The notes under the pieces are model-generated. The model ran no database searches. It saw nothing but the letters and a program-made list of their open reading frames with translations, and had not been told where the DNA came from. From Sabulicella rubraurantiaca (GTDB lineage: Bacteria > Pseudomonadota > Alphaproteobacteria > Acetobacterales > Acetobacteraceae): a DNA stretch of 64,000 nt. The translations under genes and the position numbers were made by a program. Positions 14,384 to 41,964 of the stretch are shown here, in pieces (the stretch's first letter is position 1; every line of letters starts with the position of its first letter). Location of the stretch: positions 186,001 through 250,000 of the forward strand of contig NZ_JAFEUU010000003.1 of assembly GCF_017355885.1 (NCBI RefSeq), in the 5' to 3' direction.

Positions 14384-14459
<76 letters not shown>

Positions 14460-21698: not shown

Positions 21699-24110
21699 AT
21701 GATGAACCCCGGAACCGACCTTCCCATCCAGGAGGCACTGCCCGCCCTGCGCAATGCGCTGCGCGCCGGGCCGAATGCCGTGCTGGTCGCCCCGCCCGGG
21801 GCGGGCAAGACCACCGTCGCGCCGCTGGCGCTGATGGAGGAGCCCTGGGTGGAGGGCGGCAAGCTGCTGGTGCTGGAGCCGCGCCGCGTCGCTGCCCGTG
21901 CCGCCGCGCGCCGCATGGCGGAATTGCTGGGCGAGGGGGCGCCGGGCGGGACGATCGGCCTCGCCACGCGGCTGGACCGCGCGGGCAGCGCGCGGACACG
22001 GGTGGAGGTGGTAACCGAAGGGCTGCTGGTGCGGCGGCTGCAATCCGACCCCGGCCTCGAAGGCGTCGCGGCGGTGCTGTTCGACGAGGCGCATGAGCGC
22101 CACCTCGACACCGATCTCGGCCTTGCCCTCTGCCTCGACCTGCAACGGGCGCTGCGGCCGGAGCTGCGCCTCCTTGCCATGTCCGCCACGCTGGACGGGG
22201 CGCGCTTCACCGATCTGATGGAGGCGCCGCTGGTGGAAAGCCTGGGCCGCGCCTTCCCGGTGCGCGTCGAGCACGCCAAGCGCGACATCCTGGAGCCGCG
22301 CGACCTGCCCGAAGCGATGGCGCGCGCCATCCGCGAGGTGATGGGCCGCGAGGGGGGCGACGTGCTCGCCTTCCTGCCCGGCTGGGGCGAGATCCGCCGC
22401 ACCGCCGAGCGTCTGGGCGGGCTGGACGCCGACGTGCTGCCGCTGCACGGCGAACTCCCGCCCGCCGAGCAGGACCGCGCCCTCTCGCCCGGCCCGCGCC
22501 GCCGCGTCGTGCTGGCGACGAGCATCGCCGAGACCTCGCTCACCGTGCCCGGGGTCAGGATCGTGGTGGATGGCGGGTTCCGCCGCACGCCGCGCCTCGA
22601 CCCCGCGACCGGCCTGTCGCGCCTCGTTACCACCCGCATCTCCCGCGCCGCAGCCGAGCAGCGCGCGGGCCGTGCCGGGCGCACCGAGCCGGGCGTGGCC
22701 GTGCGGCTCTGGAGCGAGGCGACGCAGCGCGGCATGGCGCTGCAGGACCGACCGGAGATGCTGGAAAGCGAGCTGTCCGGCCTCGTGCTCGACTGCGCCG
22801 CCTGGGGCGCCGCGCCCGCCGATCTGTCCTTCCCCGACCCGCCCCCCGCCGGTGCGGTGGAGGCGGCGCGCGCCCTGTTGCGCGACCTGGACGCGCTGGA
22901 CGCGGAGGGGCGCATCACCGTGATGGGACGGCGCATGGCGCGGCTGGGGGCGCATCCGCGCCTCGCCCGCATGATGTGCGCGGTGGAGAATGAGGAGGAA
23001 GCGGCACTGGCCGCCGAACTCGCCGCGCTGCTGGAGGAGCGGGATCCGCTGAGGGGCCGCGAGCCGCCCGCTGACATCACGCTGCGCCTCGACCATCCCG
23101 CCGATGGTGACCCGGTGGCGCTGCGCGCCATCCGCCGCACCGCCGCGCTGCACCGACGACGTCTGGGGGTGCACGGCAATGTCCACGCGGCGGGGGACGC
23201 GGGGGCGCTGCTGGCCGCGGGATTCCCCGACCGCATCGCGCTGCGGCGCGGCAACATGGATGGCGCCTTCCGCATGGCCTCCGGCCAGGGCGCGCGGCTG
23301 CCCGCCACCGACCCCTTGTCGCGCGAGCGCCTGCTGGCCGTCGCCGATCTGGAACTCAAGGGCATGGAGGCTCGCATCCGCATGGCGGCGCCAATCGGCC
23401 TCGCCACGCTGGAAGAACGCTTCCCGGAGCGGTTCCGCGTAGAGGAGGGCGCTTCCTTCGATGCGCGCGCCGGGGCGGTGCTGGCACGGCGGCGGCGGAT
23501 GTTCGGCCCGCTGGTGCTGGAGGAAACCCCGCTGCCATCCGCCGACCCGGAGGCGATGGCCCGCGCCCTGGCCGAAGCGGCAGCGGGGCGCGGGTTCCGC
23601 GACCTCGACTGGACAAAGGGCGCCGAGCAGCTGCGCGCCCGCATCGCCCGGATGCGCGCGCTGGAAGGCGAACCCTGGCCCGATTCGCTGACCGCCGAGG
23701 CGCTGGCGCCGCATCTCTACGGGCTGACGAAGCTGTCCGAGCTGAAGTCGCTGGACGTGGCGCAGATCCTCCTGCCGCACGATCTCCGCCGCCGCCTGGA
23801 TGCGGAGCTTCCGCCGCGCATCGCCCTGCCGCAGGGCCGCTCCGCCGCCGTGGACTACGCGGCGGAGGTGCCGACGCTGGAGGCAAGGGCGCAGCACCTC
23901 TACGGCATGTCGTCGCTGCCGCCTCTCGCGGGCGGGCGCGTGCCCTTGCAGGTGGCGCTGCTGTCCCCCGCTGGGCGGCCCATCGCCATCACGCGGGACC
24001 TCGCGGGGTTCTGGAAGGGCGGCTGGCTCGATGCGCGCAAGGACATGCGCGGCCGCTATCCGAAGCATGATTGGCCGGAAGACCCTAGCTCGGCGCTTGC
24101 GCCGAGCTAG
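21699..24110 (+). CDS. hrpB: ATP-dependent RNA helicase HrpB
   Basis: This is an 803-residue DEAH-box helicase, essentially the same length as Escherichia coli HrpB. Walker A is APPGAGKTT with K37, the DEAH box starts at D129, and the SATLD motif III and QRAGRAGRTEPGVAVRLW motif VI are clear. The C-terminal HrpB domain is present (LSELKSLDVAQILLP, KHDWPEDP at the end). Two adjacent ATGs (21699 and 21702) are possible starts. The stop codon lies inside a perfect terminator-like hairpin. The biological role of HrpB in bacteria is poorly defined. Confidence 0.95.
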   Translation: MMNPGTDLPIQEALPALRNALRAGPNAVLVAPPGAGKTTVAPLALMEEPWVEGGKLLVLEPRRVAARAAARRMAELLGEGAPGGTIGLATRLDRAGSARTRVEVVTEGLLVRRLQSDPGLEGVAAVLFDEAHERHLDTDLGLALCLDLQRALRPELRLLAMSATLDGARFTDLMEAPLVESLGRAFPVRVEHAKRDILEPRDLPEAMARAIREVMGREGGDVLAFLPGWGEIRRTAERLGGLDADVLPLHGELPPAEQDRALSPGPRRRVVLATSIAETSLTVPGVRIVVDGGFRRTPRLDPATGLSRLVTTRISRAAAEQRAGRAGRTEPGVAVRLWSEATQRGMALQDRPEMLESELSGLVLDCAAWGAAPADLSFPDPPPAGAVEAARALLRDLDALDAEGRITVMGRRMARLGAHPRLARMMCAVENEEEAALAAELAALLEERDPLRGREPPADITLRLDHPADGDPVALRAIRRTAALHRRRLGVHGNVHAAGDAGALLAAGFPDRIALRRGNMDGAFRMASGQGARLPATDPLSRERLLAVADLELKGMEARIRMAAPIGLATLEERFPERFRVEEGASFDARAGAVLARRRRMFGPLVLEETPLPSADPEAMARALAEAAAGRGFRDLDWTKGAEQLRARIARMRALEGEPWPDSLTAEALAPHLYGLTKLSELKSLDVAQILLPHDLRRRLDAELPPRIALPQGRSAAVDYAAEVPTLEARAQHLYGMSSLPPLAGGRVPLQVALLSPAGRPIAITRDLAGFWKGGWLDARKDMRGRYPKHDWPEDPSSALAPS

Positions 24111-24115
24111 GAGTT
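24085..24115 (+). terminator. Terminator hairpin overlapping the hrpB stop codon
   Basis: CTAGCTCGGCGC (24085-24096) and GCGCCGAGCTAG (24099-24110) form a perfect 12-bp stem, closed in practice by a C-TT-G tetraloop. GAGTTTT follows. The UAG stop of hrpB is the last three bases of the stem. Confidence 0.65.
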
Positions 24116-24122
24116 TTGCTGG

Positions 24123-24230
24123 GCCCTCAGGCGACGGGCGCGGCCTCTGGCCGCTTGGCTTTCGCCGCGCCACGGTCGCGTCTGCTGGTTGGGTGGTCTG
24201 GCGGTGCCGGTCGCTCTGCGGCCGGATCTC
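24123..24230 (+). repeat. Structured intergenic repeat, copy A
   Basis: This stretch aligns over its whole length with 41286-41393, sharing the GCCCTCAGGCG start, the GCTTGGCTT-CGCCGCGC centre, TGGTCTGGCGG and the GCGGCCGGAT end. Two stems are preserved. Stem 1 is GCGGCC-TCT-GGCCGC (24140-24154) and stem 2 is CCGGTCGC-TCT-GCGGCCGG (24207-24225, one G-U pair). It begins 12 nt after the hrpB terminator hairpin. There is no coding sequence in it. Confidence 0.75.
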
Positions 24231-24332
24231 TGTTGGCACCCTCCACCTCTGACGGACGGAGCCCCGCACCTTCGCGATTGACGCGCCTCTCCCTTCCCTG
24301 CGCAATGCGCGCAACGATGGGAGGGACCAGGG

Positions 24333-25076
24333 ATGGCCGGCAGGCTTCAGGGCAAGCGCGTCTTCGTCAGCGCGGCGGGGCAGGGGATCGGCCGCGCCGC
24401 CGCCATCATGATGGCGCAGGAAGGCGCGGACGTGCTGGCGACCGACAGGGACGTGGGCAAGCTGCGCGGCCTGGAGGGCATCGAGACCCAGGGCCTCGAC
24501 GTGATGGACGACACGGCGCTGCGCGAGGCGATCACGCGCGGCGGGCCCTTCGACGCCATCTTCAACTGCGCGGGCTTCGTCCACCAGAACACGGCGCTGA
24601 CCTGCACGGATGATGAGTGGGACTTCGCCTTCGCGCTGAACGTGCGCGCCATGTGGAAGGCGATGCAGGCGGCGCTGCCGGCGATGATCGAGCGCGGGCG
24701 CGGTTCCATCATCAACATGTCCTCCGCCGCCTCCTCCATCAAAGGGGCGCCCAACCGCTTCGTCTATGGCGCGAGCAAGGCGGCCGTGGTGGGCATGACG
24801 CGCGCTGCGGCGGCCGACGTGGTGAAGCAGGGGATCCGCGTGAACTGCCTCGCCCCCGGCACGGTGGAGACGCCCTCCTGGGAGGAGCGCGTGGCGGCGA
24901 ATGCGGACGAGGCCGGCGGGATGGAGCAGGCGCGCGCGGCCTTCGTCGCGCGCCAGGCGATGGGGCGCCTCGCGCGGCCGGAGGAGATCGCCTCGCTCGT
25001 CGTGTATCTCGCGAGCGACGAGAGCGCCTTCATGACCGGGCAGGCCGTCATCATCGACGGAGGCTGGACGCTGTAG
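24333..25076 (+). CDS. SDR-family dehydrogenase (2-keto-3-deoxy-L-fuconate dehydrogenase-like)
   Basis: This is a 247-residue classical short-chain dehydrogenase. Cofactor motif AAGQGIG lies at residues 14-20, the NCAG motif at 78-81, and the catalytic residues S131, Y145 and K149 in MSSAAS...YGASK. The overall sequence resembles the DHRS6/BDH2 and bacterial 2-keto-3-deoxy-L-fuconate dehydrogenase group. The next gene, an FAH-family hydrolase, is the enzyme that would split the product in the non-phosphorylative L-fucose (or L-rhamnose) route. The pathway assignment is inference from the pair. A GGGAGG Shine-Dalgarno precedes the ATG. Confidence 0.87.
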   Translation: MAGRLQGKRVFVSAAGQGIGRAAAIMMAQEGADVLATDRDVGKLRGLEGIETQGLDVMDDTALREAITRGGPFDAIFNCAGFVHQNTALTCTDDEWDFAFALNVRAMWKAMQAALPAMIERGRGSIINMSSAASSIKGAPNRFVYGASKAAVVGMTRAAAADVVKQGIRVNCLAPGTVETPSWEERVAANADEAGGMEQARAAFVARQAMGRLARPEEIASLVVYLASDESAFMTGQAVIIDGGWTL

Positions 25077-40317: not shown

Positions 40318-41280
40318 ATGACGCTCGGCATGGTCGGTCTGGGCCGGATGGGGGCCAATATCCTGCGCCGCGCGATGCGCGCGGGCATCGCGGGGGCGGG
40401 GTTCGACCGCGACGCATCTGCTGTCGCCGCGCTGGTGGCGGAAGGCGCGGCGGGGGCGGACAGCCTGGAGGGGCTGGTGGCGCTGCTGGACGCGCCGCGC
40501 ACCGTCTGGGTCATGCTGCCCGCCGGCGAGGTCACCGAAGCCGCGCTGCGCGAACTTCACGCGCTGCTTGCCCCCGGCGACACGATCATCGAGGGCGGCA
40601 ACTCCCTCTACAAGGACAGCATGCGCCGCGCTGCCGAAGCGCGGGCGAAGGGGCTGCATTACCTTGATGTCGGCACCTCGGGCGGGGTGTGGGGGCTGCA
40701 ACGCGGCTACTGCCTGATGATCGGCGGCGACGTGGAGGCGGTGCGGGCCCATGAGACGCTGTGGCGCGCCCTCTCCCCCGGTGAAGGCGCCGCGCCGCCC
40801 ACGGGCGGGCGCGAGGGGCGCGACAAGCGGCCGGAGGCGGGCTTCGTCCATTGCGGGCCGAGCGGCGCCGGCCACTACTGCAAGATGATCCACAACGGTA
40901 TCGAGTACGGGATGATGCAGGCCATGGCCGAGGGTCTCGACCTCCTGCGCCGCGGCCCCTTCCCGGAGCTGCCGCTGCCCGACGTGACGGAGGCGTGGCG
41001 GCGCGGTTCAGTCGTCTCTTCCTGGCTGCTGGACCTGACGGCGCAGGCCCTGGCGCTCGACCCCGACCTCAAGGAATACGGCGGCGTGGTGAGCGACAGC
41101 GGCGAGGGGCGCTGGACGGTGGATGCGGCGGTGGAGCACGCCGTGCCCGCGCCGGTGCTGGCCGCCGCGCTCTTCGCACGCTTCCGCTCGCGCGGGACGG
41201 AGAACTTCGCCGACAAGGCGCTTAGCGCCATGCGCAAGGGTTTCGGCGGGCATCTGGAGCCGAAGGCTCCAGATGTTTGA
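40318..41280 (+). CDS. gnd: 6-phosphogluconate dehydrogenase, decarboxylating, short type
   Basis: This is a 320-residue short-form 6-phosphogluconate dehydrogenase, which yields ribulose 5-phosphate. The N-terminal dinucleotide motif is GMVGLGRMGANI; the substrate motif is DVGTSGGVWGLQRGY, and the catalytic helix reads HYCKMIHNGIEYGMMQ. GGGGAGG lies 7 nt before the ATG. The gene ends in a hairpin that includes its last codons, and gluconokinase follows 168 bp later, so the two form a gluconate-use pair. Short-form enzymes are often NAD-linked; cofactor preference is not readable here. Confidence 0.93.
   Translation: MTLGMVGLGRMGANILRRAMRAGIAGAGFDRDASAVAALVAEGAAGADSLEGLVALLDAPRTVWVMLPAGEVTEAALRELHALLAPGDTIIEGGNSLYKDSMRRAAEARAKGLHYLDVGTSGGVWGLQRGYCLMIGGDVEAVRAHETLWRALSPGEGAAPPTGGREGRDKRPEAGFVHCGPSGAGHYCKMIHNGIEYGMMQAMAEGLDLLRRGPFPELPLPDVTEAWRRGSVVSSWLLDLTAQALALDPDLKEYGGVVSDSGEGRWTVDAAVEHAVPAPVLAAALFARFRSRGTENFADKALSAMRKGFGGHLEPKAPDV
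41251..41278 (+). terminator. Terminator hairpin within the last codons of gnd
   Basis: CATCTGGAGCC (41251-41261), loop GAA, then GGCTCCAGATG (41265-41275) form a perfect 11-bp stem followed by TTT; the TGA stop is at 41278-41280. The hairpin therefore lies in coding sequence, as at the end of hrpB. Confidence 0.6.
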
Positions 41281-41285
41281 TTTCT

Positions 41286-41393
41286 GCCCTCAGGCGCCGG
41301 GCGCCGGCTCCGCCGGCTTGGCTTCGCCGCGCTACTGGCGTGCTGGTTGCCCGGTTGGTCTGGCGGCGCCGGCCGCCGTGCGGCCGGATTCTC
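41286..41393 (+). repeat. Structured intergenic repeat, copy B
   Basis: This is the second copy of the element at 24123-24230. Stem 1 is GCCGGC-TCC-GCCGGC (41303-41317); compared with copy A the stem bases differ but still pair. Stem 2 is CCGGCCGC-CGT-GCGGCCGG (41369-41387), where copy A has one G-U pair. It begins 10 nt after the gnd hairpin and ends 55 nt before gluconokinase. It is non-coding. Confidence 0.75.
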
Positions 41394-41448
41394 CATGGGC
41401 ATCGCGATGTGTCGGGGTGGGTCGGTTGACTGGTGACCTGCTGGCCGC

Positions 41449-41964
41449 GTGGCCGTGACCCCACGCCGCGTCCTGGTCATGGGCGTCTCCGGCTCCGGCA
41501 AGTCCACGCTGGGGGCGCTGCTGGCCGAGCGCCTTGGCCTGCCCTTCGCTGATGCGGACGCGTTCCACCCCGAAGCGAATATTCGCAAGATGAGCGCAGG
41601 GATCCCGCTCACCGACGCGGATCGCTGGCCCTGGCTGGATGCGCTCGGACAGTGGCTCGCGGCGCAGGCGGGGGGAGGGGTGATTGGCTGCTCGGCGCTG
41701 AAGCGCTCCTATCGCGACCGTCTCCGGGAGCATGCGCCCGGGCTGCTTGTGGTGCACCCGCATGGCGAATTCGCGCTGATCGCGGCGCGGCAGGCGGCGC
41801 GGCCCGGCCATTTCATGCCGCCCGCGCTGATGGAAAGCCAGTTCGCCACGCTCGAACCCCCTACGCGGGAGGAAGCGGCGCTCGCCCTCGACGTCACGGA
41901 CCCGCCCGAGGCGCTGGCGCAGCGCGCCGCCGCCTGGGTGGACGCGCGGGCAGGCCGCGCATAA
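41449..41964 (+). CDS. gntK: Gluconokinase
   Basis: This is a 171-residue P-loop kinase converting gluconate to 6-phosphogluconate, the substrate of the gnd product upstream. Walker A is GVSGSGKST (12-20), followed by DADAFHPEANIRKMSAGIPL, the signature of the GntK family, and CSALKRSYRDRLR. The start is a GTG (41449), with another GTG two codons on; the ribosome-binding site is weak. Copy B of the structured repeat lies in its leader region. Confidence 0.93.
   Translation: MAVTPRRVLVMGVSGSGKSTLGALLAERLGLPFADADAFHPEANIRKMSAGIPLTDADRWPWLDALGQWLAAQAGGGVIGCSALKRSYRDRLREHAPGLLVVHPHGEFALIAARQAARPGHFMPPALMESQFATLEPPTREEAALALDVTDPPEALAQRAAAWVDARAGRA

Follow-up and report, generated by a model that had tools for sequence, protein, structure and literature searches.

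The window analyzed here, a 64,000-nt stretch of DNA from Sabulicella rubraurantiaca, contains two copies of a structured intergenic repeat. Protein family matches place copy 1 between hrpB and an SDR-family gene and copy 2 between gnd and a gluconokinase gene, all four on the + strand. The features at the two junctions are as follows:

21699-24110, + strand: hrpB (ATP-dependent helicase HrpB, TIGR01970), 5′ neighbor of copy 1
24084-24111, + strand: perfect hairpin across the hrpB stop codon, outside the repeat; the left arm is coding (DPSSA) and the right arm holds the stop codon
24112-24121, + strand: T-rich tract AGTTTTGCTG between the gene-end hairpin and the tag of copy 1
24122-24161, + strand: head of copy 1 (from the covariance model and the family pairs), with the CCTCA tag at 24125-24129 and an imperfect hairpin whose stem 1, GCGGCC/TCT/GGCCGC, lies at 24140-24154
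24162-24227, + strand: tail of copy 1, with the long-range stem partner, the 3′ hairpin CCGGTCGC-TCT-GCGGCCGG (24207-24225) and the end GGAT
24333-25076, + strand: SDR-family oxidoreductase gene, 3′ neighbor of copy 1
40318-41280, + strand: gnd-type phosphogluconate dehydrogenase gene (NF007161, TIGR00872), 5′ neighbor of copy 2
41251-41275, + strand: perfect hairpin CATCTGGAGCC-GAA-GGCTCCAGATG at the gnd end; the left arm encodes the conserved GHLEP end
41276-41284, + strand: T-rich tract TTTGATTTC of copy 2, which includes the gnd stop codon (TGA, ending at 41280)
41285-41324, + strand: head of copy 2 (from the covariance model and the family pairs), with the CCTCA tag at 41288-41292 and a hairpin whose stem 1, GCCGGC/TCC/GCCGGC, lies at 41303-41317
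41325-41389, + strand: tail of copy 2, with the long-range stem partner, the 3′ hairpin CCGGCCGC-CGT-GCGGCCGG (41369-41387) and the end GGAT
41449-41964, + strand: gluconokinase gene gntK (TIGR01313), 3′ neighbor of copy 2

The stretches 24123-24230 and 41286-41393, which had been reported to match end to end, can indeed be aligned over their full span, with a mean column identity of 78% in a 179-column alignment that includes the flanks, and copy 1 used as a blastn query against its own genome finds copy 2 at E = 1.3e-18 and 23 more places (25 in total, itself included). A covariance model of the 40-nt head scores 48 bits at 24122-24161 and 67 bits at 41285-41324 and gives no third strong head in the window, the next best match reaching 14.5 bits (E 0.023). 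The element itself is better delimited as about 24122-24227 and 41285-41389, each copy being preceded by a T-rich tract. Compared with dinucleotide shuffles, the + strand folds with z values of -3.9 (copy 1) and -2.4 (copy 2) and the - strand with -3.0 and -0.9. At the gathering threshold neither copy is matched by Rfam, whose sole match in the window is a tRNA gene (14387-14459, - strand), and for 24060-24340 at E <= 5 it returns below-gathering scores only.

The sequence-only reading took the element to have two copies and proposed a covariance-model search of the genome and its relatives; that search finds 32 copies in the 5.02-Mb draft genome itself (E <= 0.01) and copies in 21 of 21 genomes of the genus, from 2 to at least 110 each (E <= 1e-4; 110 candidates were scored per genome, so the top count is a lower bound). 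Outside the genus it occurs in 2 of 15 genomes from the family's remaining genera and in 3 of 24 genomes from different families (E <= 1e-4), and across the order Acetobacterales it is present in 40 of the 200 genomes sampled and in 11 of the 51 genera (E <= 1e-6), with 33 candidates scored per genome and hence lower bounds for the per-genome counts. The exact head pattern occurs in at least 119 stretches of GTDB genomes, the 80 matches listed coming among others from Roseococcus, Roseomonas, Falsiroseomonas, Rubritepida, Paramagnetospirillum, Niveispirillum and Azospirillum. Copy 2 is without a match in plasmids at E 1e-5. The head also occurs in six contigs of viral data (IMG/VR; L412-L417), for which prophage and host contamination are both possible. 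Six 16-nt versions of the head occur in none of the papers searched, and the titles and abstract openings listed do not describe this repeat family.

The family repeat is about 105 nt long, with a conserved head of about 40 nt and then a long-range stem and a 3′ hairpin that vary by subfamily and taxon; the tails differ between taxa. The head reads, in order, T-rich tract, (T)GC, the tag CCTCA, RRCGCCGGGCG, a variable stem around TCC and CTTGGCTT, with exceptions in single copies. T makes up 59-70% of the tract at -9 to -6 relative to the tag (197 copies), and the tract is seen as well in copies that have no hairpin before them and in reversed copies. Since the pattern used to select the A3/R1 and GTDB sets holds the tag, GGGCG and CTTGGCTT constant, these sets say nothing about how well those letters are conserved.

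The head folds by an RR/TT extension, GCC/GGC, two G.U pairs, a 2-nt bulge and stem 1. Because of the letters fixed by the pattern, pairs were counted solely in 27 own-genome matches to model R1 (27 of 30 own heads, three with longer alignments being omitted), a model itself built from the pattern-selected set: the extension is paired at 9-40 in 25 of 27 heads (20 G.T, 5 A-T) and at 10-39 in all 27 (17 G.T, 9 A-T, 1 G-C), and the two fixed G.U pairs are present at 15-35 in 25 and at 16-34 in 26 of the 27. The opposite strand would carry A.C mismatches at the fixed G.U positions. Stem 1 exists in 30 versions among the pattern-selected heads, most of them complementary (CTCGC/GCTCG and TTCGC/GCTCA are not), and the long-range stem alternates between CGCCG/CGGCG and CGCGC/GCGCG.

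The change of stem 1 from GCGGCC/GGCCGC to GCCGGC/GCCGGC with its pairing kept, on which the idea of selection on structure was partly based, is as described. In 21 own copies 96% of cells are paired in the consensus structure (stem 1, long-range stem and 3′ hairpin), and the covariation score is 0.284 compared with 0.087 +- 0.014 in shuffles, none of 500 shuffles being as high; seven pairs are changed on both sides, a count that 14 of 500 shuffles reach, and both figures refer to a structure taken from the same alignment on which it was scored. The structure is thus conserved, but compensatory changes alone are insufficient to establish selection, as the comparison of sister genomes suggests (below). 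Neither of the outcomes named beforehand as refuting the sequence-only reading, a lack of further genomic copies or of covariation, was obtained.

Some copies carry additional hairpins. Two own copies, L172 (C36:91850) and L173 (C36:94310), and one in the sister genome of the same genus, G012 (L331), have an extra hairpin of variable sequence between CCTCA and CGCCGGGCG. Two further own copies, L175 (C36:63978-64020) and L176 (C4:38121-38163), have a longer stem 1; the hairpin that precedes them, GCACGAAGGC..GCCTTCGTGC, is nearly identical in both and immediately adjoins the tag. By eye, the third hairpin of some relatives' copies appears to contain a nested palindromic repeat of another kind, the CCATGCGCGTTGC..GCAACGCGCATGG type (L114, L134).

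The position of the copies relative to genes comes from a home-made gene caller, whose codon log-odds were learned from 20 window ORFs, and individual distances may therefore be inaccurate. As to whether copies always follow stop codons, the tag side of 25 of 30 own copies adjoins a gene end in sense (14 in tandem and 11 in convergent gaps), and the other five comprise four antisense tandem copies and one divergent copy (two of the 32 matches, which have no locus, are omitted, and L171 was moved by eye from (END,END) to (start,END)). Tandem gaps in the own genome therefore hold 14 sense and 4 antisense copies. Among 121 GTDB copies there are 44 sense tandem, 35 antisense tandem, 37 convergent and 5 divergent (7 of 128 were omitted, with two called neighbors missing or a position inside a called ORF), and all gene gaps in these loci number 508 tandem, 116 convergent and 110 divergent. 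Thus, divergent gaps are avoided, and in the GTDB set strand preference is weak.

A start codon lies at the tag side of 40 GTDB copies, within 40 nt in 24 of them and at 42-998 nt in the other 16. Of those 24 reversed copies, 19 have 4-9 nt between their TGAGGGCA-type ends and the start, which puts TGAGG, the tag as read in reversed copies, 7-12 nt before the start codon; for starts beyond the opposite end of the element there is no comparable peak (1 of 49 at 4-9 nt). This TGAGG resembles a Shine-Dalgarno sequence, a possible role judged from its position, and at L171 and L160 the element-free relatives G010 and G018 have a native GGAGGG in the same place (by eye, among the matches listed). 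The same spacing is what one would expect if the repeat were an antisense regulatory leader, that is, a structured 5′ UTR with its own Shine-Dalgarno sequence, but we regard this as extremely improbable: a gene end rather than a start lies at the tag side in 81 of 121 copies, and the own reversed copies L160, L171 and L177 are absent from the readable genomes beyond G012 (L177 from G012 too), L161 being common to the own genome and G004 (among the matches listed).

Occupancy of individual sites is patchy. The gnd-gntK junction can be read at both genes in 17 of 21 genomes, the own genome (G000) included, and the element is there in six (G000, G012, G009, G017, G003 and G011); in the 11 without it the two genes abut or overlap in nine (gap <=26 nt) and are 68 and 91 nt apart in the other two. 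At the 30 own sites G012 has a recognizable copy at 23, a degraded copy at three (L150, L151 and L156, by eye) and none at four (L157, L175, L176 and L177); L175 and L176 are occupied there by a different hairpin without the element. Site orthology here means the best blastn match of a 105-nt flank, with the far neighbor checked in a minority. Of 100 readable site-genome pairs in four more distant congeners (G010, G018, G004 and G016), eight have a sense head within 200 nt by regular expression: one at L150, two each at L152, L153 and L156, and one at L161. A reversed head is present in two pairs. The expression errs both ways, with at least one chance match in coding sequence (L150 in G004) and with degenerate copies such as L157 in G016 (by eye) being missed. 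Some sites (L152 and L153) are occupied in four species (among the matches listed), which might point to a function and counts against the DNA-level reading preferred below.

These results bear on the proposal that the repeat is a functional RNA element of mRNA 3′ ends, either a stability or processing element or a 3′-UTR-derived small RNA, which selection on the transcript would maintain; two of the three options first offered were of this kind. Such an element would account for the 25 of 30 own copies that follow a stop codon in sense, for the covariation and the fixed G.U pairs, for the better folding of the sense strand and for the sites common to four species, and two hairpins within copy 1 are themselves terminator-like. 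The 14:4 bias of the own tandem gaps is likewise predicted by a role in mRNA and counts against the DNA-level reading that we prefer. Against an RNA element are the near-even orientation in GTDB tandem gaps (44:35), the patchy occupancy, the sense head in so few of the site-genome pairs of the distant congeners, the different variants that sister species carry at one and the same site and the lack of any Rfam family at threshold; moreover, part of the copies have a hairpin and T tract upstream which, if active, would keep the element out of the transcript. On balance we consider an RNA element unlikely.

Comparison with G012 also suggests how the stems change. The orthologous G012 copy is the nearest relative of the own copy at 8 of 23 shared sites and not the nearest at 15, a count inflated by degraded G012 copies (e.g., L170, L158, L161 and L163) and with small margins at L148, L154 and L155. 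At L149, L159, L167 and L169 the own genome and G012 differ in subfamily at the same place, so compensatory changes can come from replacement of whole stems. At the gnd site G012 already bears the alternative stem version; together with the 15 non-nearest copies, this makes one-step stem replacement, by conversion or template switching, possible. The abstract-level account of template switching that homogenizes the arms of inverted repeats (PMC8604942) offers an analogy to stem exchange in this family. No two dispersed own copies are more than 92% alike, and among 197 copies the highest similarities (97-99%) are between neighbors inside one locus; thus local tandem amplification is shown and recent long-range movement is not. 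L118 and L193 are direct tandem arrays of nearly identical copies, with periods of 93 and 144 nt.

The perfect hairpins at the gene ends, noted earlier as preceding each copy, are present at both window sites (12 bp at hrpB, 11-12 bp at gnd) but are not a family-wide feature. Of 18 own sense copies, 8 have a hairpin of at least 8 bp 5′ of the tag, compared with 3.9 on average among 46 control ends (p 0.002). In the GTDB set such hairpins precede 11 of 67 copies, compared with about 10 of 237 (p 0.0015), and 9 of the 11 start inside coding sequence. They are separate from the element, yet enriched beside it. The term terminator suits the hrpB hairpin, which a simple terminator scan accepts along with the two hairpins within copy 1, but not the gnd end, where the same scan finds no terminator-like site in 41200-41500; terminator activity at gnd is therefore conjecture.

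At gnd, hrpB, L154, L166 and L168 the left arm belongs to coding sequence alignable with element-free relatives, and the right arm is an inverted copy of it that is found in G000 and G012 and is absent from the other readable relatives (among the matches listed; at gnd, in these two of 17 readable genomes). The L168 right arm is imperfect in G012, and at L154 the palindrome is partly present in G004 and G016, both arms having changed between G000 and G012 with pairing retained (among the matches listed). Four genomes (G009, G017, G003 and G011) have the element but no hairpin at gnd, and the same holds for G004 at L153 and L156 (by eye, among the matches listed). We therefore reject a single insertion that brought hairpin and element together, and these sites suggest that the element arrived first, although independent insertions may also have produced them. 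A strict link between the two is contradicted by a stop-codon hairpin without the element at the L174 gene, which we take to be infA, in G010 and G018 (among the matches listed), and by the element-free hairpins of G012 at L175 and L176.

We searched for an enzyme that might mobilize the repeat and found none, either with the PF01797 profile of the Y1 transposase family in the 20 other congeners or among the neighbors of 127 loci. The 882 called proteins of these loci include no recognized recurrent transposase, and the largest clusters lie far from the copies, as judged from the size, the distance and the first residues of one representative of each. The thought that the copies might be the ends of a mobile element is not favored by this result. 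An autonomous element between the inverted pair L172/L173 was considered and set aside, the called genes there looking from their translations like ordinary metabolic genes. No target-site duplication is definable, and none was recognized by eye at the empty/filled pairs L157 and L177.

A miniature inverted-repeat element (MITE), that is, a remnant left by internal deletion of an insertion sequence and dependent on its parent's transposase for movement, would have the size (about 105 nt), intergenic location, structure and patchy occurrence seen here, with empty sites in relatives. By inspection, however, the ends of the repeat are not inverted repeats of one another, and with no target duplication and no recurrent transposase neighbor recognized, such an origin seems rather improbable. 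Much more so does a classical REP moved by a RAYT, the Y1 tyrosine transposase, in spite of the tagged extragenic palindrome, the tandem clusters and three PF01797 matches in the own genome. A loose head pattern at those three loci hits two coding-like stretches and no element, and PF01797 is found in none of the 20 other genomes of the genus, all of which bear copies; several of these are incomplete drafts, but they include the single-contig G004 (37 copies) and the two-contig G016 (92 copies). Mobilization by RAYT is thus very unlikely, and RAYT/IS200 mobilization was rejected for this genus, since among 60 genomes the eight with PF01797 include the own genome as the sole positive of its genus.

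The lack of Y1 in 20 of 20 other congeners, of the element beside the own three matches, of a plasmid match and of a recurrent neighbor together favor a REP-like repeat without a dedicated Y1 transposase. Overall, we think it probable that this is a dispersed, non-autonomous palindromic repeat of the REP/BIME kind, which spreads at the DNA level into junctions of tightly packed genes; of the options in the sequence-only reading, the REP-like DNA palindrome is the best fit. The copy number of REPs is often given as >100, and the 32 own copies fall below this figure, which counts against our reading, as do the negative search for a mobilizing enzyme, the lack of a definable target-site duplication and the lack of highly similar dispersed copies. 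The fixed G.U/G.T pairs would mean that one strand is read in single-stranded form, as a DNA hairpin or as RNA, by a factor other than a Y1 transposase, and stems would be exchanged among copies by conversion or template switching.

The position of the copies points to what they might do after insertion. In sense orientation the T tract would turn a hairpin arising from the preceding coding end into an intrinsic terminator; in antisense orientation TGAGG and the A-rich spacer would act as the Shine-Dalgarno region of the next gene, which would let insertions persist inside operons. A bolder version, which we put forward tentatively and think doubtful as a whole, is that the repeat is a portable junction module, with a terminator tract one way and a Shine-Dalgarno sequence and A-rich spacer the other way, so that it could enter either side of an operon junction; the perfect stop-codon hairpin would then be born as a copy of the preceding coding end, and terminators would be built repeat first and hairpin second, without a Y1 transposase. 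The gene-end hairpins resemble intrinsic terminators in that a perfect GC-rich hairpin is followed by a T-rich tract, and differ from them in that the left arm is coding, the stop codon lies in the loop or right arm (in several cases) and the T tract comes from the repeat; in addition, the gnd hairpin fails the simple scan.

Among known repeats, the closest in description are the CGTC-tagged REPs, which in the part of the survey available to us are mostly alphaproteobacterial, extragenic and palindromic, with a 4-nt unpaired tag CGTC (also TGTC or CCTC), G.T pairs in the stems, a location near gene 3′ ends and no associated transposase (PMC3733652). Our repeat is alike in its tag, CCTC(A), which is fixed by the pattern in A3 but is visible in most of the 25 blastn-found own copies, in its palindromic form with G.T pairs, in its extragenic location near gene 3′ ends and in having no Y1 in the 20 other congeners and no recognized recurrent neighbor. 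It is unlike them in other respects. The CGTC REPs, by the same partial account, have stems of 8-9 bp starting with two A-T pairs, loops of 4-5 nt and a CCA-like tail, and are mainly head-to-head dimers (PMC3733652); the stem here is bulged and has about 13 pairs (the first position is A-T in 10 of 27 heads and the second G.T/A-T in 25 of 27), the loop is a TCC-type triloop, CTTGGCTT and then a hairpin follow, with extra hairpins, and the copies seen are single or, where close pairs were noted, in direct tandem. It is therefore filed as REP-like and outside CGTC-1 to CGTC-4. The GTAG REPs and REPINs that have a RAYT (Nunvar et al. 2010, PMC2817692, as far as that account was available) are likewise tagged hairpins dispersed between genes, with a different tag, whereas no Y1 transposase occurs in the 20 other genomes of this genus; nor is there a repeat-flanked Y1 gene, the mark of a RAYT-driven REP or REPtron (0 of 20 congeners, the own three matches being element-free). 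BIME, ERIC and MITEs are named as intergenic repeats in the part of the survey at hand (PMC3733652). Our repeat can be likened, by description and not by sequence, to BIME, ERIC and similar modular intergenic repeats, having about 100 nt, modular hairpins and a position at gene junctions. BOX is another modular intergenic repeat of about 100 nt, with hairpins, found at gene junctions.

The survey of Di Nocera et al. (2013, PMC3733652), in the part available, reported CGTC-tagged REPs to be missing in Acetobacteraceae, and the genus studied here lies within or next to that group (Acetobacterales). The related genomes range from 2 to at least 110 in copy number, have both occupied and empty sites and show local tandem amplification, so that the spread of transposase-less REPs becomes testable. 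The repeat also suggests a route by which operon junctions might acquire terminators or ribosome-binding sites. It is a warning, too, that selection on RNA is not the necessary reading of compensatory changes in the stems of repeats.

Finally, one gene appears to recur beside the element: at L157, L147 and L405, in G000, G016 and one GTDB record, a copy precedes apparently the same gene, whose product begins MRII/MRIIAG... and which is presumably rsmD-like, while this gene in G012, G010, G018 and G004 is without the element in front (both among the matches listed). The start of this gene is a possible recurrent insertion site.
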